In this document: positions 1,916-62,000 of the stretch, piece by piece
Numbering within the stretch: position 1 is the first letter of the stretch
Layout of the letters: every line of letters starts with the position of its first letter
DNA from: Tubiluchus corallicola
Taxonomy: Eukaryota; Priapulida; Priapulimorpha; Priapulimorphida; Tubiluchidae
Assembly: GCA_030141605.1 (NCBI GenBank)
Contig: JAQGDQ010000322.1
Span: 32,501-94,500 of the forward strand
Length of the DNA stretch: 62,000 bases
Direction of reading: 5' to 3'
The notes under the pieces: model-generated
What the model was told of the DNA's origin: nothing
What the model saw: the letters and a program-made list of their open reading frames with translations, nothing else
The model's database searches: none
Made by a program: the position numbers and the translations under genes

Positions 1916-3116
1916 GCACTGCATCGCCATCCCAGTGTGCACCACTGATTCACCAACAGCACTGCATCACCATCCCAGTGTGCACCACTGATTCCCCAAC
2001 AGCACTGTATCACCATCCCAGTGAGAACCACTGATTCACCAACAGCACTGCATCACCATCCCAGTATGCACCACTGATTCACCAACAGCACTGCATCGCC
2101 ATCCCAGTGTGCACCACTGATTCACCAACAGCACTGTATCACCAACCCAGTGAGAACCACTGATTCACCAACAGCACTGCATCATCATCCCAGTGTGCAC
2201 CACTGATTCACCAACAGCACTACATCACCATCCCAGTGTGCACCACTGATTCACCAACAGCACTACATCACCATCCCAGTGAGAACCACTGATTCACCAA
2301 CAGCACTACATCACCATCCCAGTGTGCACCACTGATTTACCATCAGCACTGCATCACCATCCCAGTGTGCACCACTGATTCACCAACAGCACAGCATCGC
2401 CATCCCAGTGTGCACCACTGATTCACCAACAGCACTGTATCACCAACCCAGTGAGAACCACTGATTCACCAACAGCACTGCATCATCATCCCAGTGTGCA
2501 CCACTGATTCACCAACAGCACTACATCACCATCCCAGTGTGCACCACTGATTCACCAACAGCACTACATCACCATCCCAGTGAGAACCACTGATTCACCA
2601 ACAGCACTACATCACCATCCCAGTGTGCACCACTGATTTACCATCAGCACTGCATCACCATCCCAGTGTGCACCACTGATTCACCAACAGCACTACATCA
2701 CCATCCCAGTGAGAACCACTGATTCACCAACAGCACTACATCACCATCCGAGTATGCACCACTGATTCACCAACAGCACTACATCGCCATCCCAGTGTGC
2801 ACCACTGATTCACCAACAGCACTGCATCACCATCCCAGTGAGCACCACTGATTCACCAACAGCACTACATCGCCATCCCAGTGTGCACCACTGATTCACC
2901 AACAGCACTGCATCGCCATCCCAGTGTGCACCACTGATTCACCAACAGCACTGCATCACCATCCCAGTATGCACCACTGATTCACCAACAGCACTGCATC
3001 GCCATCCCAGTGTGCACCACTGATTCACCAACAGCACTGTATCACCATCCCAGTGAGAACCACTGATTCACCAACAGCACTGCATCACCATCCCAGTATG
3101 CACCACTGATTCACCA
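1916..3116. repeat. 43-bp minisatellite, about 28 copies
   Basis: Unit contains GCACTGCATCACCATCCCAG followed by TGTGCACCACTGATTCACCA and ACA. Variants (CATCGCC, TGAGAACC, TACATC) recur in blocks, showing amplification of multi-unit segments. The same unit forms a second array at 9072-9377. Confidence 0.95.
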
Positions 3117-3448
3117 AAAAAACACGTTATTGATCTTACTGACAATGTTAAGTGATTTAAACTTGTGCTAATTTGTGAAGAGTGCGCTATTCACACAGCG
3201 CCATTTTCGTTTATTTAGTTTAAGCACCGAATTAAAAGCGTCGAAATTAATAGTACAAAAAATTGTAATTGAAAAAACTTGTCGTTTGAATGTTTCCTAG
3301 CGTTCACGCGACTAAAACATCTTTTTCGAAAGTTCATATCTGCTAAATGATTCCGTACCATGCTGTTAAGCACTGTTCTAACAATTTTTATGCTTGAGTA
3401 ACTTGGTTGTTACACTTTACTCAGCTACTCAACTTGTTTAAAATGTAC
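3117..3448. other. No feature seen
   Basis: Unique AT-rich sequence between two tandem arrays; no exon or repeat recognised. Confidence 0.5.
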
Positions 3449-9071: not shown

Positions 9072-9377
9072 TTACTGCATCACCATCCCAGTGTGCACCA
9101 CTGATTCACCAACAGCACTGCATCACCATCCCAGTGTGCACCACTGATTCACCAACAGTACTGCATCACCATCCCAGTGTGCACCACTGATTCACCAACA
9201 GTACTGCATCACCATCCCAGTGTGCACCACTGATTCACCAACAGTACTGCATCACCATCCCAGTGAGCACCACTGATTCACCAACAGCACTACATCATCC
9301 CAGTGTGCACCACTGATTCACCAACAGCACTACATCACCATCCCAGTGTGCACCACTGATTCACCAACACCAACAGC
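9072..9377. repeat. 43-bp minisatellite, second array, about 7 copies
   Basis: Same unit as 1916-3116, same strand. Copies carry the GTACTGCATC variant not common in the first array, so it has homogenised independently. Confidence 0.95.
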
Positions 9378-19882: not shown

Positions 19883-20340
19883 CAGTCATTTGCAAAAGTT
19901 TAAGACCAAGCTCGAGTTTTCGGGATTTTCATCATACTGTACCTGAATGGCCTGGAAACGGCCCGGACCTCAATCCGATAGAGAATCTCTGGGAGATACT
20001 GAAGGATAAGGTGGCAGACAGGCAGCCATCAAGTGCTGAAGACTTGCGAAGAGTTATCAAGGACGTTTGGGTTAAAGAAATTACTTCCGAGTACTGCCAA
20101 AACCTAATTTCCAGTATGCCTCTTAGAATGAAGGCAGTGATTGACAACTTCGGCAGCCATACAAAGTACTAAAATGTTCAAGGACTGTGACTATTTTTGG
20201 ATAAAAACATACAAACTATGCTGTAGTATATTTTTCTAGAAGAATAAATGAATAGTTTTTAGATGGAACCGTGTTAAACGATGGTTTTTGACAATTTTCA
20301 GGAAAAAATCGCTTTGGTCTTAAACTTTTGCAATTGATTG
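19883..20340 (+). mobile_element. Internally deleted Tc1/mariner element, 458 bp
   Basis: Flanked by TA on both sides, with inverted ends sharing TTGCAAAAGTTTAAGACCA. The inside keeps the C-terminal end of a Tc1-type transposase: WPGNGPDLNPIENLWEILKD, then KVADRQPSSAEDLRRVIKDV, stop at 20170-20172. DLNPIENLW includes the last catalytic D/E region of the DDE domain; the rest of the enzyme is missing. It sits just downstream of the TMEM106 stop. Confidence 0.92.
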
Positions 20341-20534
20341 TACAACAACACTAACTGCCAATAAAGTAACCTCTATGGTGTCCGTGGTAATCCGTACGCG
20401 ACAACTAAGTCTACACCATAAGAGCAGTACCTAACTTAAATAAACTGCATGTTACATGAATACATATTATCACAGGAAGAAAGCACTCATCGACGTCATG
20501 ACTCAGATCCACTTTGTCTGACGAGAGGAACTCA

Positions 20535-20724
20535 TCATGTCATTCGGATCACATCATTCCACTCATCGGTTTCCGCAAGAATTGGGACTTCTGTTGACGG
20601 TGCTGTAGTTGTCGTTGCTGTCGTTGTCGTAGTTGTAGTCGCTGTTGGCGAACAGTTTACATATTGAAATGTTGTTAAGCTTACTTGTTCTACATGGTTT
20701 AAGTAAGTTGTGTCTACTGTGGTC
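20535..20724 (-). CDS. TMEM106: TMEM106 exon 6 (stop codon, Thr-rich tail)
   Basis: 190-bp final exon after acceptor TTTTCTAG. It encodes TTVDTTYLNHVEQVSLTTFQ then YVNC, aligned to human [22 protein letters not shown]. Beyond the Cys come 38 residues, opening SPTATTTTTTTATTTTAPST and ending at TGA 20537-20535; the human protein has about 21 there. The Thr run comes from a degenerate (GTT/GTC)n-like tract on the plus strand and may be O-glycosylated. Confidence 0.9.
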
Positions 20725-23700
20725 CTAGAAAATGAAAAAAATACAACATCAAAACCATGATCTTCATTAGTAAAATTTGCACAACTAATGCAAAAATGTC
20801 CAAGAATACCGTAAAATCATGACAGTTTTTATATAGCATTGGTAAAGTTCACGCCAGTATTTACTCTTCCCAAAGGTACAGTGTTTTACCCACATTCAGA
20901 CGTGTATCCCCCCCCCCACTCTTCAACGACAGCCTAAGGCCCGTGTCACACAGAGAAAGGCGTAAGAAACAATTCGTAATCCACAATCCGTAAGCCATCT
21001 TCCATCTTCCGTAAGACTCATGTCATAATCCGCGGTATGCGTGTTACTCCGTGTTTCTTTTGGCTGGAGACACGAAATTACTGCTTTAATACAGACTGTA
21101 GTTGAACAGTTAATATAATTTTACTCATTACAGCATAGCAGGTTGTCAATCGCATGCATTGTACAATATGACTGAATGGTAAATCCTGCCTGTTGCATGT
21201 AATGTAATACAGCAGTTGTAAATCAGTGTTGTGGGTTAAAATACTTTTTGATGTTTATTTTATGCCCGTGTTTTTGAATTCTTCTGATATAAATGAATTT
21301 TGTATCGCAAAAAGAGCAATTACACTAATTTTCACATTAGTAATAAAGCAAAAACACCTTATGACAAATGAAATTAATGACCAAACTCATTTCGCGATAA
21401 GAAACGCTCAAAATGGCTTGCAAGGAGCGTACCGTGGATTATGGAAAACACCCTACGGTAGGCAGCAAATGGTAAATGGATCATCTGTATGACAGGGCCC
21501 ATTGATAAGTGTAATAAGGTGCCTCTTTCTCCGCCCAGCTTCTTACGCCTTACGGAATGTATCCAGCTCCGTGTGCCAGGAGCTCTCACAGGACAGAACA
21601 GAGATAAACAATAAAACATTATGTGCCATAATTATGCTTTAAAACAGTTGATTTAGAGAGAGGAACAATAACACCTTATGTGCCATAACTATGCTTTAAA
21701 ACAGTTGATTTAGAGAGAGGAACAATAACACATTATGTGCCATAACTATGCTTTAAAACAGTTGATTTAGAGAGAGGAACAATAACACATTATGTGCCAT
21801 AACTATGCTTTAAAACAGTTGATTTAAAGAGAGGAACAATAACACATGATGTGCCATAACTATGCTCTAAAACAGTTGATTTAGAGAGAGGAACAATAAC
21901 ACATTATGTGCCATAACTATGCTCTAAAACAGTTGATTTAGAGAGAGGAACAATAACACATTATGTGCCATAATTATGCTTTAAAACAGTTGATTTAAAG
22001 ACAGGAACAATAACACATTATGTGCCATAACTATGCTTTAAAACAGTTTATTTAGAGAGAGGAACAATAACACATTATGTGCCATAATTATGCTTTAAAA
22101 CAGTTTATTTAGAGAGAGGAACAATAACACATGTGCCATAACTATTCTTTAAAACAGTTGATTTAGAGAGAAGAACAATAACACATTATGTGCCATAATT
22201 ATGCTTTAAAACAGTTGATTTAAAGAGAGGAACAATAACACATTATGTGACATAACTATGCTGTAAAACAGTTGATTTAAAGAGAGGAACAATAACACAT
22301 TATGTGCCATAACTATGCTTTAAAACAGTTGATTTAGAGAGAGGAACAATAACACATTATGTGCCATAACTATGCTTTAAAACAGTTGATTTAGAGAGAG
22401 GAACAATAACACATTATGTGCCATAACTATGCTTTAAAACAGTTGATTTAGAGAGAGGAACAATAACACATTATGTGCCATAACTATGCTTTAAAACAGT
22501 TTATTTAGAGAGATAAACAATAACACATTATGTGCCATAACTATGCTTTAAAACAGTTTATTTAGAGAGATAAACAATAACACATTATGTGCCATAACTA
22601 TGCTTTAAAACAGTTTATTTAGAGAGATAAACAATAACACATTATGTGCCATAACTATGCTTTAAAACAGTTTATTTAGAGAGATAAACAATAACACATT
22701 ATGTGCCATAACTATGCTTTAAAACAGTTGATTTGGAGAGAGGAACAATAACACATTATGTGCCATAACTATGCTTTAAAAGCAGTTTAGTTGAAGAGAA
22801 GAACACGCGAATCATACATGATGGTACCATATGACTGAAGTAAGTTTATCAGGAGTTTCTTTTTGAAGGGGGCGACAAGTGTCGATTGATTAGTTATCTC
22901 ACATGTTTCATTTATAAAGTGACATGATTTATAAAGTTTCATGTGAAATACGTGAAATCGGAAAAACTGTAATTTCCGCTTACATAATGCAATAATTCTT
23001 TTCACAGTTCCAGCGATTAATGATGATCGTGAAAAGGTCAAAGGTTAAGTGCACCAGACAACACAATTGTGTACACTTGACAATGCCTTGCAGCCAAAGC
23101 TGTTGTAATAGTTACCGTATTAACAGCTAGCTAGAACTTTGCCTAGTTCATTTTTTCTTGTTCCCAAGCAAAATCCTGCTCGTAAATCACTCTACATCAG
23201 GGGTGTGCAAATTGCGGCCCGCCAAGAGAATTTGTGCGGCCCGCGAAGAGATTTGTCAACCTAATGAAAGTGCGGCCCAGGCGATTAATTGAGTGTATCC
23301 AGCTGAAGTCCGTGCCACGATCCCAAAGATAGTGCGGGTAGTTTTTTCTACTAGATCGGATGCCATTAACCCTTACAAGACGGTTGTAGCTTAATGTCAC
23401 TGTACTACACAGACTGTGTGATACACGTTACTAATATGCATTGTATTGAAATTACCACTATCTGTGCTGAAAGTAGAAATATATGGTTTGTAATATAAAT
23501 TTTAGTGACTTCTAAAATAGTTTCTTGAGTGTAGTAGTAATGATGTACGCAGGTCGGATGCAAAAAAATCGTTATTAGGCCTTTCTGTACTTGGCTCCTT
23601 GATCAAACTGCGTGTGGCCCGCAGGAATTGCGGGAAAGTTTAATGTGGCCCGCCTAGTCAGATAATTTGCACACCCCTGCTCTACATACAGACTAATACA

Positions 23701-26700
23701 TAATCAGCTAAAATCCATGTAAAAGAGCAGGATTTACTGAAGTGATGGTGCAAGCAGCTTTGCTTTAACCTTTGACTTACAGCAACGGTGCATGTGCACA
23801 ATGAAACTGTGAAAAGAGTTATTTTTAATGCTTAAAACTTAAAAGAAAAATTGTTGAAAACGAGTTTGTCTTTGCCTGCACAATCTGCATGGCATTTTGC
23901 CTTGACTGTTTGTACATGAATACTGAATGAAGCCAGTGGCTACTGTTAGATATATTAACACCACATATATACGATTAAATATTAGATATATTAGTCTGCT
24001 AAATATATTAACACCAGCCAGAAAAAATGCAATTCTTAATAACTAACATGCAAGTCGTAAAAGACGTATTTTATTTACTGATTTTCTATATAAAGCAAGT
24101 GAGGCTGTGGGTGAAACAATCATGCAGTAAAAAATTCCACAGATAAGAGGTCAGGGGAAAGTATATTTATACCTTTTGTTACCTAACTAAATCATCTAAT
24201 GAAGGCAGCAAAAGGGAGCTTCCAACCAAATTGTCGGCATTTAGGGGGGAATTACAGTTCGGGAATTATGGTCTCGACAGCTTCTGGTGAAGAAAGAAAC
24301 AACTGACCTTGAATGAACATGAAAATACATGGCTGACAACATATCAGACCCAACCAGATTACCAACAAGATTTGTCAATCTATCAAGTGGGTTGAGGTAA
24401 CGAGGCTGAGGCATGAAAATGCATGGTTGACAACATATCAGACTCAACCAGATTAACAATACGATTCGTCAATCTATCAAGTGGGTTGAGGTAACAAGGC
24501 TGAGGCATGAAAATATGTGGCTGACAACATATCAGACTCAACCAGATTAACAATAAGATTCGTCAATCTATCAAGTGGGTTGAGGTAACAAGGTCGAGGC
24601 ACCAGCCCTATTGTGGCTGCAGTATTCCATGCAAGAAAAGACAGTTGAGATCGAGTCCAGCACTGGAGGGACAGATTTGGATCGTCTTGACTACAATACA
24701 GGTAATCTCCTTTTGATAAAGCAAACGATATCTTTGTACGTCTCTGAAAGATACTTTTTCATCTAAGATTGGAACACAAGCACAGGGCAAGCAAACATGG
24801 CAACCCCTTCAAAGCGATACGTTTTCCACATTTTCTAATTGGGAGTTGTTCAGTTTCGTACGGAATCGTATCATTAGCTGGTTTAAAAACCGTGAGATTA
24901 AAAACTGATAATCTGTTAGTCGGTAGCTATTTGAGAAAACGAATTCTTGAAATTTGTGTGTAAATAAACATGGTTAAATTAAAAGTAGTACTTACACAAA
25001 AGCAAAAGCAATGTAATGCATCCATGTGGTGGGACTACTGCAAAATTTCCTACAGAGAAATAATTTCAAATTGGTGCATGCGTTAAGTCTACTAATTAGT
25101 GCAGTTTTTTAATGAGGCAGTTTCAAACCATTGCATCCAAATTAAACAGCAAATAACTGGAAATTTTAACAATTCTGCTAAAAGGAAAAGAGTTACCAAC
25201 AAATGTACTGTACTGTTCATAGCATTCGAAAACAACATTTGAAACTGCCCACGTGTTAGCCAGTCACCCATACAACTACCACACTACCTACAGCAGTTAC
25301 TTACATAAACGTGATGAACACCTCGTTGCCCATCATCTTGCAAAATAAGCTAGAGAATGAAAATAGAAAGACAAAACTTCAGACAAGAGTAGCAACAAAA
25401 CACTACACAAAAAGCGTATCCCATAATCCTGTGCGTGTGCACAAGATCACGCTGTTATTAAGAAAAAAGTGGTTCACCCGAACGGGGACTCCGTTTTTGC
25501 GTATTAACATTAAAGGAAAACCGGACGATTTTGTAGACATTAGTTCAAAATAAAGCATACTCTAAAATACAGAAAACTACAATAGCTTTTTTAAAATCAA
25601 AGCTTAGATTAAATAATAATTACCTTGGATAGTTAAATTTTGTTAAATTTTTAAAGCTATGCACAGCTCAGCTAATCCACTAAGACTGACAATGGCACCT
25701 TTTTATCACATTCACGTGGCCGACAAATAGGCGTTGTACATTGATAAGCATGATCATGACCTGAAGAGATGTCAGTGTGATGTAGAGCCCATTTTCATGA
25801 CATCACATCAGCGTCTTATAGCAACGTTCGCTTACACAAACCTGCTTGACGTGCAAGGAAGATGTCTACCATTGCATAAAATGTGGTTAATTTGTGATGT
25901 AAGTGACAGGCTGTGTTCGGTTGCCGTTAATTAACTTTCCAAGGTAATGTTTCAAATATTAGAAACAACTGCTAATTTTTACACGTAACAAAATGTATAT
26001 TTTGGACAGTAAATGAAAATGAGATCGAGTCTAATCGAACGTCCGGTTTTCCTTTAACTACAAATGATACGGTGAATCAAAATGCCATCAATGTGAAAAA
26101 ACACTTGTTGTGTTGACACCATTTGCAAATTGGTGATGTTAGCGGGCACTTGGGCTAGCAAACAATTACTGTTACATCGTAATTTACACACCACAGGCCC
26201 AACCAAGACAAATAAACAAGCTAAGCATGGCAGTGGCGGAAACCTATTAAATTTAGACAGAAGCGCCTACACATAAATCTTTACGCACCGTGGTATTAAG
26301 AATGGCAACACCGATGCAGGTCAGTTGTATGCAATAAAATATTTTGACATGTCAAACTGCTTTAATCATCTCTTTCGTTATCCTTTAAGTTAAACTATTT
26401 AAAATAGTTCATATTAAAATAAAAATTGCACAGACAGCACAGCTTTTAAATAAGTATTCATAAAAATTCATTTAGAGGAAACAAAAAATGCATAAAAAAA
26501 TGGGTAGAAAGTTAGTGACACTGAAATATTAGTGTGACAGAAAACTAACATTAGTTAATAAACGCAATGAAAACAAAAACAAAAATTACTAATAGATTAC
26601 TGCATAATTAACAAAGTTTAAATATTTGACAGATATGAACTCTGTTGAAGTTCAAAAACTCTTTGCTGGATATTTCAGTAACTGTAGACCTCATGAGTTT

Positions 26701-29575
26701 ACCTCAGAAAACATTTTAAAGTCAATGCATCTATTATATAAGATGAATGGTGAGAGAACCAATGTAAATTTAATATTGTTTCTGTTTCGGTAATTTAAAG
26801 CACAAGAAAACCCTCCACTTACATAAAGCTTAAAAAACTCGTCTTGAAATTTTATACCACTTATTTAACGCCCTTTTGCATACAGCCATAACGCTGTATG
26901 AAACGTAAATTTAAACTCCCGCGATGACCATTAGACACATCCAATTTGGCGAGAAATCATTTGAAAGAAGTTTAGATGACACTGAGTAAACTTTTAAAAA
27001 ATAGTCAGAGCATTCGTAGTGCACACATCGCTAACTAAATAAAATTTTAAATTACTATATCTTGTCAATAAGATTAAAAATACATTTTTGGTTAGTTAAT
27101 GGTGCACCCTGGAGGGTGAGTCATTGACATTTTACCAATTGGTGAAAACATTTTAAATAATTAATAATTTTCTTTTCTAGTTACATAAGTCTTTCCAGCA
27201 GGTAAACGAAATGCTAAGTAATATAACTTTGCATGGAAAGTTTTTTGGGACATAATTTAACATTTCCTTTTCTTCCCCTGGTTTATGATGTGCGTAAGTG
27301 ACGTCATGTAATGGCATTGTCGGACTGTGGGAACTTTAAAATGAAAACAAACAAAAAATCCTTTCAACACGAGTACGATATACGCAAAAAATGTTATAAA
27401 GTAATATAATTTTTAAAGCCGTTTTTTGAAACCTACTTCAGGTACCTCTTTTCTTGTCCTTTAAGTTAAACTATTTGAAACAGTTCACATATTAAAATAA
27501 AAATTGCACAGACAGCACAGCTTTTAAATAACTATTCATAAAATTAATTTACAGGAAACAAAAAAATGCATAAAAAAATGGGTAGTAAGTTAGTGACACT
27601 GAAATATTAGTGTGACAGAAAACTAACATTGGTTAATAAACGCAGTGAAAACAAAAACAAAAATTACTAATAGATTACTGCATAATCAACAAAGTTTAAT
27701 TTAGTTAGTAAATCAATTAATGCAAGTTACTTAAAACATGAGAGAGTTCTCCTGAGAGTTTGCCATCTTTAGTGTAAAAATGATGAATGCTCTTTACGTG
27801 GTGAACGCGTGGCATCCGGAATACATTACGCACACACTTGGCATCCCGAATACGTTACGCACATGCGTGGCATCCGGAATACGCTACGCACACGCGTGGC
27901 ATCCGGAATACGCTACCCACACGCGTGGCATCCGGAATACGTTACGCACACGCGTGGCATCCGGAATACGTTACGCACACGCGTGGCATCCGGAATACGC
28001 TACGCACACGCGTGGCATCCGGAATACGCTACCCACACGCGTGGCATCCGGAATACGTTACGCACACGCGTGGCATCCGGAATACGTTACGCACACGCGT
28101 GGCATCGCACACGCGGAATGGCAGCAGAAAAAAATAACGCATATTGCAGGTCACATAAACTGTTGCATTGAAAACAGTATGAATCAATTTTATCTATTCC
28201 GCATCCGCATAACACATTCCGAGCGCTCCATAAACGCCACTTTATAGTATCACAATGATTATTTGTTTATTTCAGGAGTTTTCACCCTAACAGGCCTCAT
28301 TAACTGAATACACTGTCTATCCAAATGATGAGGCCCGTTAGGGTGAATACACTGTCTATACGGCTGATGAGGCCCGTTAGGGTGAATACACTGTCTATTT
28401 AGCTGACGAGGCCCGTTAGGGTGAATACACTGTCTATCCAGAGATGAGGCCCGTTAGGGTGAATACACTGTCTATCCGGCTGATGAAGCCCGTTAGGGTG
28501 AATACACTGTCTATCCAGATGATGAAGCCCGTTAGGGTGAATACACTGTTTATCCGGCTGATGAGGCCCGTTAGGGTGAATACACTGTCTATCCAGATGA
28601 TGAAGCCCGTTAGGGTGAATACACTGTCTATCCAGATGATGAGTCCCGTTAGGGTGAATACACTGTCTATCCAAATGACGAGGCCCGTTAGGGTGAATAC
28701 ACTGTTTATGCGGCTGATGAGGCCCGTTAGGGTGAATACACTGTCTATCCAAATGATGAGGCCCGTTAGGGTGAATACACTGTTTATGCGGCTGATGAGG
28801 CCCGTTAGGGTGAATACACTGTCTATCCAAATGATGAGGCCCGTTAGGGTGAATACACTGTTTATGCGGCTGATGAGGCCCGTTAGGGTGAATACACTGT
28901 CTATCCAAATGATGAGGCCCGTTAGGGTGAATACACTGTTTATGCGGCTGATGAGGCCCGTTAGGGTGAATACACTGTCTATCCAAATGATGAGGCCCGT
29001 TAGGGTGAATACACTGTTTATGCGGCTGATGAGGCCCGTTAGGGTGAATACACTGTCTATCCAAATGATGAGGCCCGTTAGGGTGAATACACTGTTTATG
29101 CGGCTGATGAGGCCCGTTAGGGTGAATACACTGTCTATCCAAATGATGAGGCCCGTTAGGGTGAATACACTGTTTATGCGGCTGATGAGGCCCGTTAGGG
29201 TGAATACACTGTCTATCCAAATGATGAGGCCCGTTAGGGTGAATACACTGTTTATGCGGCTGATGAGGCCCGTTAGGGTGAATACACTGTTTATGCGGCT
29301 GATGATGCCCGTTAGGGTGAAAGTTCCTGATATAAATATATAATCATTGTAAGACTATGAAGGTCGTTTGACGTTTTTTATGTTACTGCAAAATACTCTT
29401 GATGTATTTTTGTATCTTAAGATAAGAGAGAGTTAAAGAAGAAAAATTAACTGTTAAAAAAATCTGGATTCAAATGCTAGCAGCAAGACCAATTTTTTTC
29501 AACTTTTCAACTTTTTCTATCAAGCCTTGATAAAACACACGGCTAATATGTATATTATACTTTTCAAGTTTTGTT

Positions 29576-29619
<44 letters not shown>

Positions 29620-29625
29620 CTCCCT

Positions 29626-29685
<60 letters not shown>

Positions 29686-32600
29686 GTTCACTCTTTCTCT
29701 CCCTCTCCCCCTCCCTCCTCTCTCTCTCTCTCTGCCCTCCCTCCCCCCTCTCTCTCTCCCTCTCTCTCTCAATATATTGAAAAAGAGAGAGAACAACAAA
29801 TGCAAATATTTGGTATTTACTATAAAAATAATAGATACTCAGAAAGTAGCTACAAAACACTCAAAGATCAAGGATATTTCCTTTATCAACTCACAAACAT
29901 TTTCACCTTGACTTCTGAAATAAAAGGCACAAAGCATGTGGCTTAAAAAGAAAAATGAAGAAGCCAATCTTGGGAACTTTTGCAACCGATATAGCAGAGC
30001 ATACTTACGCTATGTAACCTTGGTCATCTTTGAACGTGATATTCATCGGAATCTTGACCGTCTCTTCGGATCTTAGACCAATCTTGACCGAGTCAGAGAG
30101 CTTCGTTTCACTAATTAATTTCGTATCATACATTGCTACCATCGTTATGTTTTCTGCCACAACTTTTACAAAATTCTTATTTGAAATGTTGAAAGAATTC
30201 TGAAAAATTAAACAAAACATAAAAGACTTAAGACACGAAGGAGAATTTAATGGAAAAATGGCGACACCTTTTAAAGTCCAGGTGAAAAAGGTGAATGTTT
30301 ACACACATCCAATGTATTGATGCTCTACTAAAGTATCTAGAAGGCTAATATGTCATTGTTTTTGGCACACTATTGCTTACGATACGCTGGAGTGACTGGC
30401 GATCGCGTGTAGCAAATGGCAAGAAGAAATATTTCCAATGTATGAGATGCACCAAGTCAACACTCGTTTGAAAATTAAATTCTCCATATTTGGCAAATAA
30501 ATGTAACTATATCATCATGTAACTTATCATGTGACCACAGGCTGAGTTATCATTGGATAATTGTCAATTAAACAATGGTCGCTGGTCACCAGACACTCAA
30601 AAAATAAAAACAATTTCTATTTCAAAATTGAATTCATTGCCGACCGGTTTCGAACAAAACTGTTTATTATCAAGGCATCTAAAACAAAGAAATTTACCAG
30701 AATTTAGAAACATCGAAATACAATTCAGTAATTAATAGCCAAAACACAGATAATACATTATATAGATAATTTAACAATTTACCTTACAGATTACATATCT
30801 TCATTGGTTAGAAACCATGTAACAAACAAACAAACAAACCAACCAATATGTTAGTAGTAACACAACTGCAATATTAGGTAACAAAACAGCAGCTCCTTAA
30901 TATTGACAGTTCTGTTACTAGTAACATATTGGGTCTATATGACCACCGCACGGCCCTCCATAATTAAACAATGGATTAGCATTCTAGATGCTTTAGTACT
31001 GTACATTTAATGACATACAACAATGCAGAAGCGTAGCAAGGCAAGGCAACAGGAGACAATTCCCTCGGGAGCAAGAGTGAGAGGGTGTAAAATTCTTCTA
31101 GAGTTCAATGACTGTTAATTATTCATTACTAATCCGACATTAACAAAACAATTAACAAAAGTTTTCAAACTACAAACAAAATTGTCTAGTCAGAGATCAT
31201 AGTAGCTGATTTAATTACAAGATACAGCCTAGAAAATGGGCTAATGTTGTTACTCAATGGCATGCGTGTGGTTTAGCAGATCAATAATTTTGGAAGAAAC
31301 AGTGACATTCTTCTAAATGCAGATTGTATTATTGTGAAAACTTGCAGTGTTCTGTATCTTTCATAATCTTTACATGTTTTAATGCTGGAGCTGAATGTTT
31401 AATGACTGTCATGTTACAAACAACTAATGTATAGAAAAGAGTTATTCTGCTGCAGTACCGCAAATCAAACACAGGGTGATTCTTAGAAAAAATTCTTTTG
31501 TCTTTATCTCATCGTGTCGAAAAAGGAAAGTCGGGATTAAGGACGCAAAAACGCGCATAATTTGTGGGTTCAGCCACGAAACCAGAGACTAAAACATTAA
31601 AAGGGTAGGGTTGCAGAACTTTTTTGCCCCTGGCTGAACAACGAATAACTATTTTGTATAATGTTAATGTTATGCATTAAGAAAGAATTAATGAATCACC
31701 TCAAGTCGCATGTCTACAATTCCCAGTGTCGTATTTACATAAACGTAGCTAGGATCAATGTGCGGAGAATGACTATGTAGTTGAACCTCACGTGGAATGA
31801 GAAAAAATATGAGTAATCCTGATATAACTGCACAGCACAGAACAGCAAGAGACACCCATAGCATTCTGTAAAGATAATCGCATAGAATGATACAACTGCA
31901 CAGCACAGAACAGCAAGAGACACCCATAGCATTCTGTAAAGATAATCACATAGAATGATACAACTGCACAGCACAGAACAGCAAGAGACACCCATAGCAT
32001 TCTGTTAAGATAACCGCATAGAATGATACAACTGCACAGCGCAGAACAGCAAGAAACACCCATAGCATTCTGTAAAGATAACTGAATGATTATCTTATAA
32101 CCGAATGATAAAAATAACCGCATAGAATGACTATAACCGAATGATAAAAATAACCGCATAGTATGATACAACTGCACAGCACAGAACAGCAAGAGACACC
32201 CATAGCATTCTGTAAAGATAACCACATAGAGTGATACAACTGCACGGCACAGAACAGCAAGAAACACCCATAGCATTCTGTAAAGATAACCGCATAGAAT
32301 GATACAACTGCACAGCACAGAACAGCAAGAGACACCCATAGCATTCTGTAAAGATAACCGCATAGAATGATACAACTGCACAGCACAGAACAGCAAGAGA
32401 CACCCATAGCATTCTGTTAAGATAACCGCATAGAATGATACAACTGCACAGCGCAGAACAGCAAGAAACACCCATAGCATTCTGTAAAGATAACCGCATA
32501 GAGTGATACAACTGCACGGCACAGAACAGCAGGAAACACCCATAGCATTCTGTAAAGATAACCGCATAGAATGATACAACTGCACAGCACAGAACAGCAA

Positions 32601-35197
32601 GAGACACCCATAGCATTCTGTAAAGATAACCGCATAGAATGATACAACTGCACAGCACAGAACAGCAAGAGACACCCATAGCATTCTGTTAAGATAACCG
32701 CATAGAGTGATGCAACTGCACAGCGCAGAACAGCAAGAAACACCCATAGCATTCTGTAAAGATAACCGCATAGAGTGATACAACTGCACGGCACAGAACA
32801 GCAGGAAACACCCATAGCATTCTGTAAAGATAACCGCATAGAATGATACAACTGCACAGCACAGAACAGCAAGAGACACCCATAGCATTCTGTAAAGATA
32901 ACCGCATAGAATGATACAACTGCACAGCACAGAACAGCAAGAGACACCCATAGCATTCTGTTAAGATAACCGCATAGAGTGATACAACTGCACAGCGCAG
33001 AACAGCAAGAAACACCCATAGCATTCTGTAAAGATAACCGCATAGAGTGATACAACTGCACAGCACAGAACAGCAAGAAACAACCATAGCATTCTGTAAA
33101 GATAACCGCATAGAATGATACAACTGCACAACACAGAACAGCAAGAAACACCCATAGCATTCTGTAAAGATAACTGAATGATTATCTTATAACCGAATGA
33201 TAAAAATAACCGCATAGAATGACTATAACCGAATGATAAAAATAACCGCATAGAATGATACAACTGCACAGCACAGAACAGCAAGAGACACCCATAGCAT
33301 TCTGTAAAGATAACCACATAGAGTGATACAACAGCACAGAACAGCAAGAAACACCCATAGCATTCTGTAAAGATAACCGCATAGAATGATACAACTGCAC
33401 AGCACAGAACAGCAAGACACGCATTGCATTCTGTAAAAATAACTGCATAGAATGATACAGCAGCACAGAACAGTTGTAACGCTGTATAAAATGTGTAAAT
33501 TTAAACTCCCATGACCGCTAGGCGCGGTCATTTGAAAGAAGTTTTGATAACATTGAATAAAGTTTGAAAAAAAATAGCATCCGTAGCATATATCTTGCTA
33601 ATTAAGTGAAATTTTAAATTACTGTATCTTGTCAATAAGATTAAAAATACGTTTTTGGCTAGTGAGTGGCGCACCCTAGAGGGTGAGTCAGCAACATTTT
33701 ACCAATTAGCACAAACATTTTAAATGATTAGTCTAGTTACATAAGTGTTTCCAGCAGGTAAGCGAAATGCTAAGTAATATAGATTTGCACGGAAAGTTTT
33801 TTGGGTCATAATTTAACATTCCCTTTTGTTCCCCTGATTTACGTGTTTTAGTGACGTCATGTAATGGCGCCATCGGAAGAATATTGCGGAAGATTTAAAA
33901 TGAAAAGAAACGAAAGTTCCTTTCAACGCGAATACGATATGTGCCTAAAATTGCTGTAAAGTAGTATAATTTTTCAAGGCGATTTTTCTGAAACCTACTT
34001 CAGGTACCCCTTTTCTTGACTTTAACAAAGAAGGTTACACCACACAGGGGTGGAGTAAGTGTCAGACGTAGTGGTTGAAAAATGAAGCCAGTCATTAAAA
34101 TTCGAGTTAGCCTATCAGGCTACATAAAACCCACAAATAGTTACTACAGTTACATCAAAAGCAAACACCCGAGTTTTTAATGCAAAATGAAAATAGCGGC
34201 AGTTTTAAAAAGTTAACTGCCAAGATCAAGCATTCACTTTTGTGTAAATTCTTCACTTTGATATATCTGATAGCAACTGGCTGATGATTAATCACTATAA
34301 CAGTTATCAAGGAGCTTACGTTCTGCGTGGCTTTAACCTGACATCACCGTACGGTATTAGGGCTACCAATTTGGCTTCATCCTCTGCAAAACAATTTATT
34401 AAAAATTATCACTAAAATTTAAATGTACCAACATCTGGCCAAAAAAAATTTTATACCCGGTAACTGATTATAGCTTTGATAATCATTATAATCATGTCGC
34501 CACCAACATATAAACTGAACAGGCTCTGCCATCTAGTGGCCGAATAGTATAACAAATGGGCTGGAGAACAAGGAATACAGCTGTCTGACCAGAACAATTC
34601 TAAAAAGGCTCTACATGTCAAATACGATTTAACACTTTTCAATAAAATCATGGTCAAATGCCATAAATTACAAATTTCAACCACCAGATAGTCTTAATTT
34701 TAGCTCATTTTTAATTAATGGTTAAAATTTGCCCGTTTTTAAAGAGAACATAGTTGGAGCACTAAGACAATTATAATATGAAAAGTGGTTTTACTAGTCT
34801 TTAAGAATGCATAACCCAAAACCTTGTAAAAAAACAAGTACCATTCCTGCGAGTTCACAAGTTGAATAGAGCACTCTAACTGTAACTGAAATATAAATTA
34901 TTATATTAAATTTATCAGATGAGTGTACTAAATCACAAGTTTAAATCATTTATTAATTGAAGCAAGCTAACCTTTTGGAATTCTACCACTGCCTTTACAC
35001 GTGGGACATGGAACATTACCGCGCATTAACTCTTCATAACGATGCTCATCTTCCGAGCTGGTAGCTCCATATGGACTTACTCGTCCGCTATGGTTCATCC
35101 TATTGTCATTATTATCGCCCATAATATTTTCAGTTGATGAACCACCGTTTCCGCGAAAAAATTTACTAAACGGCATGTTAGCAAAATTCTTCAGCAT
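20535..35197 (-). CDS. TMEM106: TMEM106-family type II transmembrane protein, six exons, complete
   Basis: Coding exons in transcript order are 34972-35197, 34320-34383, 31700-31865, 30009-30199, 24996-25037 and 20535-20724. All junctions are GT-AG, phases agree, and the sum is 879 nt (292 residues plus stop). Family hallmarks appear in order: a cytosolic N-terminus with CPTC at residues 64-67 followed by KGSGRIPK, then LVALIPYGD and LKPRRT before one membrane segment (about residues 99-120, ending FFLIP), then a lumenal beta-rich domain with NxS/T sequons (NTT, NIS, two NIT, NCS) and the late motif FQYVNC. Human TMEM106B has 274 residues with the same order; it is known as a lysosomal/late-endosomal protein affecting lysosome size, trafficking and acidification. 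Oddities are a threonine-rich C-terminal tail and loss of one conserved lumenal cysteine. Introns are packed with minisatellites. The A/B/C paralogue cannot be assigned. Confidence 0.92.
21595..22790. repeat. 57-bp minisatellite, about 21 copies
   Basis: Unit ATGCTTTAAAACAGTTGATT, TAGAGAGAGGAACAATAACA, CATTATGTGCCATAACT. A GATAAAC variant fills four consecutive units near 22500-22690, a sign of local amplification. In TMEM106 intron 5. Confidence 0.97.
22985..23830. repeat. Fold-back repeat carrying a hAT insertion
   Basis: Segments 22990-23060 and 23755-23825 are imperfect inverted copies (CTTTTCACAGTT, GGTCAAAGGTTAA). Related sequence recurs at 43800-44105 in inverted orientation to 23041-23175. 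The hAT MITE lies near its centre. Confidence 0.6.
23198..23679. mobile_element. hAT-type MITE, 482 bp, with 8-bp target duplication
   Basis: Inverted ends CAGGGGTGTGCAAATT / AATTTGCACACCCCTG, GGCCCG motifs next to both ends, and a perfect 8-bp target duplication CTCTACAT at 23190-23197 and 23680-23687. All are hallmarks of hAT elements. No transposase inside. Confidence 0.95.
24318..24600. repeat. 94-bp tandem repeat, three copies
   Basis: GACAACATATCAGAC recurs at 24335, 24429 and 24523, 94 bp apart. In TMEM106 intron 5. Confidence 0.95.
24996..25037 (-). CDS. TMEM106: TMEM106 exon 5 (42-bp microexon)
   Basis: Found from required phase and alignment: acceptor TTTTGCAG, donor GTAAGT, one base + 13 codons + two bases, exactly what exons 4 and 6 need. 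It encodes SPTTWMHYIAFAF, collinear with human IKVHNIVLMMQ (MHYI against VHNI). It is isolated in about 9 kb of intron. The lumenal Cys expected just upstream is not present here or in exon 4. Confidence 0.8.
26381..26620. repeat. Direct repeat, copy 1 (partner 27457-27699)
   Basis: About 240 bp from TCCTTTAAGTTAAACTATTT to ACAAAGTTTAA, more than 90% identical to 27457-27699 in the same orientation, 1.08 kb apart. Confidence 0.9.
26882..27456. repeat. Dispersed repeat, copy A (partner 33470-34018)
   Basis: About 550 bp shared with 33470-34018, same orientation: AACGCTGTAT start, TATCTTGTCAATAAGATTAA middle, GAAACCTACTTCAGGTACC end. It lies between the two 240-bp direct repeats. No coding potential seen. 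Confidence 0.9.
27457..27699. repeat. Direct repeat, copy 2
   Basis: Partner of 26381-26620; together they bracket dispersed repeat copy A, so the whole may be one composite element. Confidence 0.9.
27802..28112. repeat. 29-bp CpG-rich minisatellite, about 11 copies
   Basis: Unit CGCGTGGCATCCGGAATACG plus TTACGCACA (or CTACCCACA). It is GC- and CpG-rich in an AT-rich intron; each unit carries ACGCGT and GCGTG. Open frames on it are by-products. Confidence 0.97.
28270..29318. repeat. 39-bp minisatellite with 78-bp higher-order unit, about 26 copies
   Basis: Unit GATGAGGCCCGTTAGGGTGA, ATACACTGTCTATCCAAAT. Over most of its length two subtypes (CTATCCAAAT and TTATGCGGCT endings) alternate strictly. 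The array starts with one inverted unit (28272-28291). Long frames are open on both strands because 39 is a multiple of three. Confidence 0.97.
29575..29772. repeat. (CT)n tract with CCCTCCC interruptions
   Basis: About 195 bp of CT dinucleotide. Read on the TMEM106 strand it is a (GA)n purine run 0.24 kb downstream of exon 4, in intron 4. Confidence 0.97.
30009..30199 (-). CDS. TMEM106: TMEM106 exon 4 (lumenal domain)
   Basis: 191-bp exon after acceptor TTTTTCAG, donor GTAAGT. It begins NSFNISNKNF, matching human NTLNITNNNYY, and continues through AENITM and MNITF, giving three likely N-glycosylation sequons. It ends at GYI plus two bases of an Ala codon, in the position where relatives have a conserved DFC. 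Confidence 0.92.
30200..31699. other. TMEM106 intron 3
   Basis: Contains the retroelement-derived segment at 30620-30950; the rest, about 31000-31690, shows nothing recognisable. Confidence 0.8.
30620..30960. mobile_element. Rearranged copy of the 3990-4220 retroelement segment
   Basis: 30620-30740 matches 4000-4110 in the same orientation (CATCTAAAACAAAGAAATTT). 30775-30850 matches 4150-4225 in the opposite orientation (ACCTTACAGATTACATATCT). The two halves are thus inverted relative to the other copy. Confidence 0.7.
31700..31865 (-). CDS. TMEM106: TMEM106 exon 3 (transmembrane segment), seed of the 68-bp array
   Basis: 166-bp exon after acceptor TTATCTTTACAG, donor GAG|GTGATT. It encodes the single membrane span (MLWVSLAVLCCAV, then ISGLLIFFLIP) and the start of the lumenal domain, with sequon NTT. 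Its first 40 bases (31826-31865) and the adjacent acceptor recur in tandem through 33475, so the true acceptor is the last of about 22 near-identical candidates. It leaves in phase 0. Confidence 0.9.
31866..33475 (-). repeat. 68-bp minisatellite built from the TMEM106 exon 3 splice acceptor
   Basis: About 21 units precede exon 3 in transcript orientation. Each holds the first 40 bases of exon 3 (AATGCTATGGGTGTCTCTTG to GTGCAGTT) followed by a 28-bp piece that starts GTATCATT and ends TTATCTTTACAG. An 80-bp insert (AACTGAATGATTATCTTATA) occurs twice, at 32082 and 33173, so a ~1.09-kb block was itself duplicated. No stop occurs in any minus-strand frame over long stretches. Confidence 0.97.
33470..34018. 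repeat. Dispersed repeat, copy B
   Basis: Partner of 26882-27456, directly oriented; lies in TMEM106 intron 2 immediately behind the 68-bp array. Confidence 0.9.
34320..34383 (-). CDS. TMEM106: TMEM106 exon 2 (LVALIPY / LKPRRT)
   Basis: 64-bp exon between acceptor TTTTGCAG and donor GTAAGC. It reads E-DEAKLVALIPYGDVRLKPRRT across its borders, the juxtamembrane cytosolic stretch of TMEM106 (human LVALIPYSDQRLRPRRT). It enters after one base and leaves after two bases of a codon, matching both neighbours. Confidence 0.9.
34384..34971. other. TMEM106 intron 1
   Basis: 588 bp of AT-rich sequence, no inserted element recognised. Confidence 0.85.
34972..35197 (-). CDS. TMEM106: TMEM106 exon 1 (start codon, CPTC motif)
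   Basis: Starts at ATG 35197-35195 and encodes residues 1-75 plus one base. It is low complexity, rich in Asn/Gly/Ser, until the conserved VPCPTCKGSGRIPK. The donor is AAAG|GTTAGC. A second ATG at codon 8 (MPFSKFF) is an alternative start. The CxxC pair is the cytosolic motif of the family, often proposed to bind metal. Confidence 0.9.
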
Positions 35198-35796
35198 TGC
35201 TTAATGTGCAACACTTTTCCTACTTAACCTTTTATGGATATTTACCATCACCTCATTATTAACCTTTATGCCTATTAATAAAAATTATCAGTATTACAGA
35301 ATTATAACGCTCAACTCCGAACACTACTAAAGAAAATAGCAAATTATTAGTGATAATAAGTCACATGAGCTCCGCCATATTCGTTGTTTAATTTACGCGA
35401 TTTTGTTTCCTGTCGCAAAGTTCCACCCCCAAACACATCGCCGAATCTCTATTACTGTGTACCATTTACCAGAGAATGCAGCATGAATGATACTAACATC
35501 CGCCATTATGCAGGAATGCCTTAATCACTGGTCATTGTCTCACCGGACAGTTGTCACTGGTGGCATAAAAATTATTATAATTTATACAAAATACAGCAAA
35601 ACACACTAAAATTACCAACTTCCAAACATATCGTCAGTGGAATGACTCGTGAAACAACTAATCGCCTGTAACTATGCAGAAGCCTGTTAATGAGTTGCAA
35701 TATGATAATGAATAGCAGTAGAAAGGCGAGTAGGAATGGAATGGAAAGATGGATAGTATCAGAATTATGTTAGAGGTTTTGAGTTTGCCAAGACTT
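35198..35796. other. TMEM106 upstream region
   Basis: 5' UTR/promoter side of TMEM106 with YY1-like motifs; the rest is unremarkable. Confidence 0.5.
35366..35386 (-). promoter_or_regulatory. Possible YY1-type core promoter motif of TMEM106
   Basis: Read on the minus strand the site is CGAATATGGCGGAG, matching the YY1 core (AANATGGCGG), about 175 bp upstream of the TMEM106 start codon and in gene orientation. A second, weaker CCGCCATTATG lies near 35500. YY1 motifs of this orientation commonly sit at or just after the start site of housekeeping genes. No TATA box was noticed. Inference from motif and position only. Confidence 0.4.
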
Positions 35797-36212
35797 GGGA
35801 TGTTATGCGAATAATGGAATCGCTTTGTGTGATAAGTAAGCAAGGTTCAATAGAAGCACGGGCAATTATACTGTGACTGGGGGTGTTATGTGAATAATGG
35901 AATCGCTTTGTCTGATAAGCAAGCAAGGTTCAGTAGAAGCACAAGCAATTATACTGTGACTGGGGGTGTTATGTGAATAATGGGATCACTTTGTGTGATA
36001 AGTAAGCAAGGTTCAATAGAAGCACGGGCAATTATACTGTGACTGGGGGTGTTATGTGAATAATGGAATCACTTTGTGTGATAAGTAAGCAAGGTTCAGT
36101 AGAAGCACAAGTAATTATACTGTGACTGGGGGTGTTATGTGAATAATGGGATCACTTTGTGTGATAAGTAAGCAAGGTTCAGCAGAAGCACGAGTAATTA
36201 TACTGTGATTTT
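35797..36212. repeat. 83-bp tandem repeat, about five copies
   Basis: Period is exactly 83 bp (GGGTGTTATGTGAATAATGG at 35881, 35964, 36047, 36130). Lies about 0.6 kb upstream of the TMEM106 start codon. Confidence 0.95.
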
Positions 36213-38040
36213 TAATGATTGGTGTTCTGTGTTAGTGATGTGGTCAAAGATTGATATCGAGTGGACAGGTTTTTTCAGTATTCATTGTCAAGTGGGTTAT
36301 TTCTCAATTTGTTAAGATAGCCAATTTGCACATTCCAAATAACCGGATTTTTTTTTGGTCTACAAAAAATACCAAATAAATTACTAGATTAAAAAAATAT
36401 TAAAAAATTAAACTATGAAAACAGCCCTTTTATTAGATCAATTTGTATATGCTTATGCGTGAATTTAATATTACATGACAACATAGCCATTCTTTGCCTT
36501 TTAATTCATTGCATTTAATGCGCTTCATTCACTCCATCATTTCATTCTGAAACTAGATGTTTCCACTTTCTTACCTCATCATGCTCCCCCTTTTTATTTA
36601 TTTTTTCTTTCGTGGGCCGTGAAAATCTGACAAACTCTGCTTTCTTGTTATTCCACGATGCATTTACATCGCGGCAAACGTGGGGTAAGGCATCTCTTAT
36701 TTCAGTGATATAGCAAGAAGTAAAATTAAAATTGTGCTACGTTCAGTGTGCTAAGGATGTTGTTATACATGACAAAAACATTTGAAAACGTGTTACGTGA
36801 AATGAATAAAATAGATAGATAGAAATTCATTTTTTACATAGATAATGAATAGGTCTTAAATAAAAACCGCATGTAAACAATGTTTCCATAATGATACATG
36901 TAGTTAGTGAAATTAAGAGTCAATTTAAAATACGTAAATTACACGCTAAAATTACACGTAGCAGAATCATCTGTTAAAATAATGAGAATGAATTACGATT
37001 AAATTTAACTGTTCGAAAATTCTTCAGTTACATCGAACAATATTACACACTAATAATGCCTTATAACTGTTATTGTTATAATGTAGCGGTAGATTTGTTT
37101 ATAATAATAGTAGAAGAATTGGTTATTGCTGGAAATTAATAAATTAAATTTTGTTATATCAGTGATTTGTTAGCAGATCAATTTTTGTTAGCAGCTGCTA
37201 GCACTTGCCTGCAATGCATGCCTGTCCGGTTTTATGCTTGACAAACAAATGGACCGTAGACTTGTAAATAAGTATTTCCTTGTTATTTAGTTTTTACTTT
37301 GGTCAGCTCAGTGGTGACTTTTCCACTAGAGAGTTACAAAATACGAATTTCTGGGTAACTCACCTGTGAAAAGCTTCACAGAACTTAAGTTTGCTGTGTC
37401 GTTCTCGTTCATGCTTAAAACTTTTAAAAGGACAATAATAATTATTATTCTCACAGAGCAATGCTAGACAATAACTAGAAAGAGAGAGGGGAAAAGAATG
37501 GGGAGTAACAGAAAAAGAGAGAGAAGAGTGAGTGACTGAATGAGTGAGGGAGAGAGAGAAAGAGAAAGAAAGTCAGTTTGCAATTGCTAGCTTTCATTCA
37601 AACAAAAATAGCTTTACAAACAGTACTAACTATGATTTAGATGTGTAATAATGGACGAGTTGGCCAATCGGTTATCAGCAAGCTAATTAATTGTCAGGTA
37701 ACTAGTTAACTTGTTTATTTTTGAATAATTAGTCAAACAGTGAGCCGTGTCGGACCTGTCAAGGCAACTCTGAACAAGTAGCCAGTTAGCCAATTCGTAG
37801 ACTAATTCATATAAGAACACGTATTGTGATTCGTTGAGCTTGATGAACCCTTCTGCATATATCTAACGTTTGAAAGATATTCATACTACATAAAAGAACC
37901 TTTTACAACCTAGTTTTTAATTTCGCCGCCAGCTTTAATTTTGTGGAAATCGACTCAAAGAATGCTATGGAAAATAAACTAACTGACAGAACATCTGACT
38001 TGAAGATCTTGCACATTGTCAAGTGCAGGTTTTGGAATTT
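36213..38040. other. Gene-free intergenic stretch
   Basis: AT-rich; a purine-rich GAGA tract near 37480-37570 is the only visible feature. Confidence 0.5.
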
Positions 38041-48800: not shown

Positions 48801-51800
48801 CTTTATTAACGGCAGGCGAGCCCAGCTAGTTTTGATGTCACAAACGAACACAATTTTCAACAGCAGAAATATTCCACGGGCGTGTTGAACGTGTTTGTGA
48901 AAGTGAAAATTGAAGTACTGTGCTGGTGTACAACATTTAGTGTAATATACAAAAGCTTGGCAAATTTTGAGATAAAAATTGAAATTTTAAATTTCCCGCT
49001 GTGCTCACGCATGAGCTCTCGCACGTGTGTAATAAGTCACAAACGAACACCTCTAAACTGAGAGGTATAGCACCTATTTTTCATGCAATGATTTTTCATC
49101 CATCATTTTCTGAAATGCAGGGGCTAATGCGAATGGCAAAATGCATGTAACACTAAAGAACTAGTGGCGGGAACGAGAAATTGTGTTTGTGTGGTAATAA
49201 TTATTTCACATAAGAATTATCTTTTCTTTCAAAGTTTTAAAGAGTAGATTGTTTTGATCTACAGTTTAGGATTGGGTCTGGTTTTGCTTTAAAATGAAGC
49301 CAGAAGGCAAATATTGTGCATCATGTAAGTTGCTACCAACGTATTTTATTCTTTATTTGCAGGTTTTTAAAGCTATTATTGCATCAGGTCAGAAGCTTTC
49401 CAGCAAAACAAAATCTCGGTCACCTTTAAAATACCAGTGGCATGGTAAATATTATCTGGGGGCAGCACACGGCATGTCTGGCATTATGTATGTGCTGATG
49501 CAGGTAAGCTGAATGTGCTGATGTGGATATGCTGAATGTGCTGATGTTGGTAAGCTGAAAGTGCTGATGTGGGTAAGCTGAATGTGCTGATGCGGGTGAG
49601 CTGAATGTGCTGATGCGGGTGAGCTGAATGTGCTGATGCGGGTGAGCTGAATGTGCTGATGCGGGTGAGCTGAATGTGCTGATGCGGGTGAGCTGAATGT
49701 GCTGATGCGGGTGAGCTGAATGTGCTGATGCGGGTGAGCTGAATGTGCTGATGTGGGTAAGCTGAATGCGCTGTTGCGGATCAGCTGAATGCGCTGATGC
49801 GGGTAAGCTGAATGTGCTGATGTGGATAAGCTGAATGTGATGATGTGGGTAAGCTGAGTGTGCTGATGTGGATAGGCTGAATGTGCTGATGTGGTTAAGC
49901 TGAATGTGCTGATGCGGGTAAGCTGAATGTGCTGTTGCGGATCAGCTGAATGCGCTGATGCTGGTAAGCTGAATGTGCTGATGTGGATAAGCTGAATGTG
50001 CTGATGCGGGTAAGCTGAATGTGCTGATGCGGGTAAGCTGAATGCGCTGTTGCGGGTCAGCTGAATGCGCTGATGCGGGTAAGCTGAATGTGCTGATGCA
50101 GGTAAGCTGAAGGTGCTGATATGGGTAACCTGAATCTGCTGATGCAGGTAAGCTGAATGTGCTGATGTTGGTAAGCTGAATGTGCTGACGTGGGTAAACT
50201 GAAATGACACTGAACAGGCAGAGATGTCTTAGTGACACTGAGGTGTAGATCCTCCCTCCACAAGCTAAACAGGCTGAATCAGCACAGTGTACAAAAACCA
50301 CACAGAGTATCGTACTTGGTGGCCACCCATCCATTTACTGACTAGCCTTAGCATGGTTAAACTTAGGTCACTAAGCAACACTGTGTCATCACTCATCTAT
50401 TCTGCTGTAACTGATTGTTATCGTTACTGAAGATAGCTTTTCAGACTACTTTGAAGCGGCAATTCATGTTAAACTGCTTTTTTGCAGCTAGCTGAAGAAT
50501 ACCCCCGCGAGATGAACACATTAGTGAAACCAGCAGTTGACTACCTTGCATGCCTGCGCTTTCCTAGCGGGAACTATCCTAGTTCTATAGAGAGTCAGTC
50601 CGGAGACGTGCTAGTGCACTGGTGTCACGGTGCACCTGGATTCCTCTTCATGTTTGGTGCTGCTTACAAGGTACAGACAGACTGACTGACTGACTGACTA
50701 ACTAACTAAAGGGTTTTTGTTGAATTAAATAATGAAGTTATGTTGTAATCAAGTAAACATAAATACCATCACAGTAATCACGTACATTCACATCTTGGCC
50801 CCTGCTTTTACGGATATCGGAAGAATCGGACAAAATACGGACCGTTAAAAAGTCCTGCATACTGTGGATACGGTCCGTTGTTTCGCAAGCCGACTGCTAG
50901 TTGGCAGGCCGTCACTTTGTTTACATTCAAACAGCGTGTGTTGACACGTGTAGCTTGTACGTCAGCATGTTTAGTGGTTTAATCAGTCTGTGTAAGTGGT
51001 TTAGAGTCAAATGTGTGGAGTTATTTGCGTCAATTGCCGACAGGTTTTATATACTTTTGCATAGGAGCGGTACTAGACGTTTTTAAGACAATTAGGCGAT
51101 TGATTCAACATTACCATGATACAGCAACACAGCAACTACTGTATTGGCTTAGTATCGGTAAATACGGACAATCGGCAAATTCGGACCGACGTCTCGCCGG
51201 TTTTGTCTGGCAAACCGAGATATAAGTGCACTTACAAGCAAACTTATGTGGCTTCTAAGCAATTTCGACTTGGTATACATCAGACGGTGATTTATAATAT
51301 ATTGCTGTTCTGTTAGGTTAAAGACGCAGTTTTAAACACGGTGGATTCTTTGCAGAAATCTGGAATTCTATGATCCTCTAATTGAATTCTACTTATTTAT
51401 AAATAAGGACTGAGATTAATTCAGCTCACCATTTGATTTTTGATTTGCAGGTTTTCAAAGATGAAACATATTTACAAGCGGCGCTCGGCTGCGGTGAAGT
51501 GATCTGGAAGAGAGGATTGTTAAAGAAAGGTTACGGGATTTGTCACGGCGTGTCCGGAAATGCTTATACTTTCTTATATTTGTACAAGCTAACTGGAGAT
51601 CTCAAGCATTTATACAGAGCTATAAAGGTAGTTGTTTTTTTATTGTAAGTAAATATATTGTTTGTTGTTCGTATATATAATTTTTCAACTTTCCAGAGAT
51701 TAAATTTCACTTTCCTTGATTAGTGATCCAGCCTTCTTAAGCTTGTTTTAATGTAAATATGAAACACTCATAAATATGAGAAAATTGGAGAAATTCTTGT

Positions 51801-54787: not shown

Positions 54788-61593
<6,806 letters not shown>

Positions 61594-61596
61594 CTG

Positions 61597-62000
61597 TACA
61601 CGACAATAATGATACGATTATCTTCACAACCCAGTCAAGTTTTAATCGTATAACAACCAGCAATAATGGTACCTTTATCTTCACAACCTGATCAAGTTTC
61701 AATTGTGTAAGAAGCAGCAATAATGACACGTTTATCTTCACAACCCAGTCAAGTTTCAATCGTGGAAGAAGCAGCAATAATGACACGTTTATATTCACAA
61801 CCCTGTCGAGTTTCAATCGTGTAAGAAGCAGCAATAATGACACGTTTATCTTCACAACCCAGTCAAGTTTCAATCGTGGAAGAAGCAGCAATAATGACAT
61901 GTTTATATTCACAACCCAGTCGAGTTTCAATCGTGTAAGAAGCAGCAATAATGACACGTTTATCTTCACAACCCAGTCAAGTTTTAATCGTGGAAGAAGC
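61597..62000 (-). repeat. 57-bp minisatellite abutting a GMC splice acceptor, continues past window
   Basis: About seven units reading, on the gene strand, TTGTGAAGATAAACGTGTCA, TTATTGCTGCTTCTTACACG, ATTGAAACTTGACTGGG. The partial unit next to the exon supplies TTGTGAAGATAATCGTATCA, up to a few bases before the acceptor GTACAG. The right boundary is not in the window. Confidence 0.93.

Follow-up and report, generated by a model that had tools for sequence, protein, structure and literature searches.

Why is the beginning of a coding exon, together with its splice acceptor, repeated 21 times in the intron that precedes it, and what would become of transcripts spliced to the copies? The question is raised by a TMEM106 gene on the minus strand of the 62-kb stretch of DNA analysed here (the window), in which three genes were annotated, the annotation covering everything beyond the first 20 kb.

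The TMEM106 gene and the array at its third exon

A six-exon model of the TMEM106 gene was translated to an uninterrupted protein of 296 amino acids with Pfam matches to TMEM106 (3.6e-21) and TMEM106_N (1e-17); with both the N-terminal and the C-terminal domains present, the protein belongs to the TMEM106 family. The exon model and Pfam place exon 1 at 34972..35197, exon 2 at 34320..34383 (donor from 34319), exon 4 at 30009..30199 and the last exon at 20535..20724, all on the minus strand, and the introns measure about 0.6 to 5 kb. Exon 3 (31700..31865, minus strand, 166 nt) encodes the start of the membrane span and is supported by its open frame, by Pfam and by the junction and helix of a related protein, P0001. 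Between exon 4 and the last exon lie two in-phase alternatives on the same strand, exon 5a (25305..25349, 45 nt, from alignment), whose peptide is present in P0001, and exon 5b (24996..25049, 54 nt, open frame and alignment), which was used in the six-exon model and looks closer to the aligned TMEM106 proteins of other animals; the two are possibly mutually exclusive.

P0001 is the best TMEM106 relative found, with 86% identity over 97% of the query. Because its 293 residues are encoded on a contig of 1205 bp, as against introns of up to several kilobases here, its source is apparently a cDNA. In the alignment the membrane span of P0001 starts directly after the exon 2 residues and is identical there to that of the window, so the relative, judged from this apparent transcript, makes the authentic exon 2–exon 3 junction, and the array very likely derives from an ancestral exon 3. 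More distant proteins were recovered by protein search at 39–43% identity for Branchiostoma and 43% for the clam Mya, and TMEM106 of other animals can be aligned both with the helix of exon 3 and with the residues spanning the junction (RRT|MLWV).

The array forms the 3′ end of TMEM106 intron 2. TRF called it at 31820–33473 with a period of 68 and 24.3 copies; taken together, TRF, splitting into units and the unit matrix delimit a 68-bp minisatellite at 31866..33480 (minus strand) with 21 copied acceptors. When the array was cut at each acceptor, 22 ACAG|AATG sites were obtained, of which one is the authentic acceptor (31866) and the other 21 are copies; this bears out the proposal of an earlier sequence-only reading that the start of exon 3 had been amplified along with its acceptor. 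Units are 68 bp long in 17 of 21 cases, the other four being 66, 63, 140 and 140 bp. In a regular unit 28 nt of intron come after the exon part, which corresponds to the first 40 nt of exon 3, as that reading had stated; the unit bordering exon 3 agrees with it at all of these positions (40/40 nt). The remark of the same reading that a few acceptors read TTAACAG applies to four of the copied sites. Mean identity is 95% among the 17 full units from which the unit matrix was built. With 21 copies, chance origin of the array is no issue.

No further copies of the array were found elsewhere in the window by blastn (E 0.1, outside 31000–34000), no Rfam model matched at the gathering threshold in 20000–36300, and no tRNAs were detected across the 62 kb. 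On its 5′ side the array adjoins the end of an interspersed repeat of ~0.55 kb (33477–34025, minus strand) that occurs again in TMEM106 intron 4 (26889–27464). The same intron holds a 78-bp higher-order array of alternating 39-bp units (28305–29321), which is bounded by an inverted repeat and can be read in long open frames from either strand.

Growth of the array and predicted use of the copied acceptors

Traces of how the array may have arisen are retained at its exon edge. A TATCA word within exon 3 (31820..31824, minus strand, unit position 42–46) recurs 68 bp upstream, within the last unit, and the pair is likely to represent the microhomology at the birth of the duplication. At unit position 41 all 17 full units carry G where exon 3 has A; for this reason the inner units look homogenised and the edge spared. 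Self-similarity of the array is 0.79 at a lag of 1092, equal to that at a lag of 68, and within the lag-1092 block ~370 bp match at 93–100% identity, an odd 140-bp unit included. This pattern is most simply read as growth by unequal exchange, and from the block duplication inside the array we infer copy-number polymorphism.

Copied and authentic acceptors were compared using a rough matrix, by which the copies score 6.2–8.8 bits and the authentic site 7.9 bits, in keeping with the near-equivalent 3′ splice sites described by the sequence-only reading. Since the majority of the copied sites are at least as strong as the authentic one, decoy use may be frequent. The outcome of such use was predicted by joining exon 2 to each copied acceptor and translating everything kept up to the exon 3 donor. 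None of the 21 products stays open past exon 3; each reaches a stop codon in the array or in exon 3 itself, always before the last junction, and the copied acceptors could possibly give rise to unproductive transcripts. The product of the site 204 bp upstream (32070), which had been expected to add 68 residues in frame, also hits an early stop, and 11 stops occur over the three sense frames of an array earlier described as stop-free over most of its sense strand. The variable-length membrane regions envisaged from that description are therefore not predicted, and in-frame membrane extensions are ruled out by the stop analysis for the 21 canonical copies.

When every upstream AG in the array was considered, 47 of 48 ended early, at positions expected to trigger nonsense-mediated decay. 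The sole AG keeping the frame, at 31896, would insert 10 residues; it falls on a GCAG inside the last unit and scores 7.2 bits on the same rough scale, against 7.9 for the authentic acceptor, so that a short 10-residue variant is possible. Mini-exons lying within the array were judged unlikely: one donor-like site reaches 3.3 bits and the rest at most 1.8, although two of the 20 donors annotated in the three genes (1.9 and 2.8 bits, in a range of 1.9–11.4) also fall below 3.3. Exon-part variants were counted in 19 of the 21 units, those 68 or 140 bp long; five variants are nonsynonymous and one synonymous, a small sample. A 390-amino acid frame at 31788–32960, considered as array-encoded protein, had no match at E 0.001 among 7999 candidates scored.

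Boundary repeats at LANCL and GMC oxidoreductase

Tandem repeats across an exon boundary were found in all three annotated genes, at two acceptors and one donor. The plus-strand neighbour of TMEM106 is a LanC-like gene (LANCL; Pfam LANC_like, 2.3e-90) with ten exons and an open frame. Its exon 6 (49363..49503, plus strand), delimited by the open frame and followed by the authentic donor from 49504, runs into a 23-bp array of 31 copies by TRF (49490..50203, plus strand; TRF, gene model and scan), whose unit joins the last 14 nt of exon 6 to the first 9 nt of the intron, donor included. The array holds 30 GT sites of >3 bits, the authentic donor among them, and two copies score equal to it. Of the 29 others, the 20 that exceed 7.5 bits were translated, and every one (20/20) gave the same early stop. 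P0064, a protein of the relative encoded on a 1467-bp contig, joins the authentic exon 6 codons.

The third case is a duplication at the boundary of exon x3 of a GMC oxidoreductase gene (59082..59347, minus strand; TRF period 129, 2 copies; TRF, gene model and scan). Here the acceptor and the first ~40 nt of the exon are present twice, with starts 133 bp apart, the upstream copy at 59255 and the authentic one at 59122; use of the one copied acceptor, which was tested, would end the reading frame. A 57-bp array at 61604–62000 was considered as a fourth boundary repeat and rejected, as it ends ~10 bp short of a GMC acceptor and the junction itself has no copy. Beside the three boundary repeats, TRF reports about ten other multi-copy arrays in the window. 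One 43-bp minisatellite family occupies two separate arrays, at 1912–3117 and 9074–9369.

Whether junctions are targeted was assessed by scanning for nearby copies, a criterion that 5 of 41 junctions satisfied, compared with 20% of 4000 random gene-span positions (~8 expected). The five comprise the three true tandem repeats and two look-alike LANCL acceptors (e6 and e8) 2.1 kb apart, which were set aside as not being a tandem repeat; at the LANCL exon 5 donor, scanned at the correct boundary, no nearby copy was present. Counted by bases, the depletion of junctions is weak (P 0.02 for 3/41 and 0.13 for 5/41). Counted by unit length, with an expectation drawn from hand-picked arrays of period at least 20 in gene spans, three seeds cover a junction against 0.74–0.85 expected (P 0.04–0.055, depending on the arrays counted), and among arrays of at least five copies two do so against 0.25 expected (P 0.026). 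The base-wise and unit-length controls point in opposite ways. We read these counts as minisatellites that start anywhere and persist under selection where the site at the exon edge is left undamaged; some mild preference for junctions may exist.

Explanations and known systems

The array is probably best explained as an intron–exon boundary minisatellite of the mirage type, with tolerated decoys that arose as a by-product of minisatellite growth, an origin that we consider likelier than a working part of the gene. The segment first duplicated in tandem would have begun 28 nt before the exon 3 acceptor and ended ~40 nt inside the exon, probably through slippage between the two TATCA words, which lie 68 bp from each other. 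Unequal exchange would then have multiplied the units and made them uniform, as the block structure suggests. The copies would remain intronic, and splicing would normally use the exon-edge acceptor, as in the apparent transcript of the relative; occasional use of a copied acceptor leads in translation to a premature stop and would expose the mRNA to nonsense-mediated decay. The same process appears to have acted independently at the LANCL donor and the GMC oxidoreductase acceptor, and because of these independent cases the most likely account is a by-product of a minisatellite-rich genome, with selection acting as a filter that preserves the exon-edge site.

The decoys could instead be a working regulator, diverting a copy-number-dependent share of TMEM106 pre-mRNA to decay and so setting protein dose. 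Acceptor copies that score like the authentic site, stops upstream of the last junction from every one of them and a block structure suggestive of copy-number change would all suit such a device, but neutral growth accords with the recurrence of this architecture in unrelated genes and also at a donor, and we regard regulation as unlikely. Far less probable is that the array supplies extra membrane segments in frame. Several long open frames run along its sense strand and the internal AG at 31896 would add its 10 residues, yet against this stand the early stops from all the copied acceptors, the weakness of the donor-like sites, the five in six exon-part variants that alter an amino acid and the unmatched 390-residue frame.

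Tandem arrays are often mis-assembled, which gives some ground for suspecting an assembly artefact; the units nevertheless carry distinguishing variants and include two of 140 bp, and three boundary repeats stand in the window beside the other multi-copy arrays, making an artefact very improbable. That exon 3 was a late recruit from a pre-existing minisatellite, and not the source of the array, would find a precedent in the suggestion, made for mirage repeats in PMC3087553, that they offer a route to new introns. Alignment of the helix and of the RRT|MLWV stretch with TMEM106 of other animals speaks against so recent an origin, which we consider scarcely credible.

In amphioxus, tandem repeats spanning exon–intron boundaries have been named "mirages" (PMC3087553). 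According to that account Adh3 and globin genes have such repeats, which may lie at either boundary, differ in length between haplotypes and leave splicing undisturbed, and troponin C and PGBD5 are added by PMC3902484; the cases named are Adh3, troponin C, the globins BflGb6 and BflGb9, and PGBD5. As far as these texts describe them, mirages share with the present arrays a tandem unit across the intron–exon boundary, 5′ or 3′, and many units carrying splice signals. In TMEM106, LANCL and GMC oxidoreductase alike the unit spans the boundary, and the authentic boundary lies at the array edge (31866, 49504 and 59122, respectively). Concerted evolution that excludes the cluster edge, reported for mirages in the same sources, is likewise seen here in the 95% identity of the inner units, position 41 and the lag-1092 block. 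The layout of the TMEM106 array, the 3′ end of an intron plus the 5′ part of an exon, is that given for BflGb6, where two haplotypes are described with 6 and 3 units, compared with 21 copies in TMEM106 and about 31 in LANCL. Normal splicing was shown by RT-PCR in amphioxus, according to the same text, whereas here it is suggested by an apparent transcript of a relative that may itself lack the arrays; the contigs encoding P0001 and P0064 carry the authentic junctions.

Lancelets are not alone in having boundary repeats as such, because minisatellite-type repeats at exon–intron boundaries are also described in human segmental-duplication genes, where PMC2812944 discusses them as a source of novel introns. 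Those internal tandem repeats resemble the present arrays in type and position; in them, as described there, alternative transcripts keep the repeat in an exon, and units average 30 bp, present 4 times. In the Rogers model of intron gain from AG|GT exon segments, as cited in PMC3087553, a splice-site-bearing segment is likewise duplicated in tandem, but here an old intron was lengthened and no new one made. NAGNAG tandem acceptors (PMC3250501) also involve several acceptors competing at one intron end; here, by contrast, 21 such sites follow one another, mostly at intervals of 68 bp, and do not preserve the frame. No boundary array appears in the accessible part of a worm account of intron motifs and minisatellites (PMC4039745), and a literature search covering titles and the starts of abstracts, with few subscription journals among them, returned no mirage report outside lancelets.

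The kind of repeat is known; novelty seems to lie in the lineage of the host, in the number of copies and in the occurrence of three cases in one window, which suggests lancelet-style boundary minisatellites in another animal lineage. Such a genome would offer a natural test of the choice made by the spliceosome among 22 near-equal acceptors, or within a field of donors, and at arrays of this kind caution is due with gene models and with junctions called from short reads. A broader claim, that boundary minisatellites are systemic in an apparently non-lancelet lineage and that array length tunes the share of productive mRNA from TMEM106, LANCL and other genes, is unlikely; if true, decoy splice sites would stand in many genes, in fields whose length is polymorphic.

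The host probably lies outside the cephalochordates, which sets it apart from the amphioxus cases as a matter of taxonomic record and not of structure. A lancelet origin of the window was disfavoured, as LANCL is no closer to Branchiostoma (53–54% identity) than to other phyla. Its best spiralian matches are Lingula (57%), Tubulanus (56%) and Lamellibrachia (55%), but Lineus (54%) and Owenia (52%) stand no nearer than Branchiostoma, and the second-ranked match by score is a beetle protein of 48% identity. The TMEM106 identities to Branchiostoma and Mya given above are in line with this. A LANCL tree of 30 rows (the window, P0064 and 28 named proteins, using 29 of the 120 proteins listed and leaving out the second-ranked beetle) placed the window among spiralians with weak support (53/92). 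Grouping of LANCL with Branchiostoma was disfavoured at a borderline p-AU of 0.044, in a comparison run after the tree was seen.
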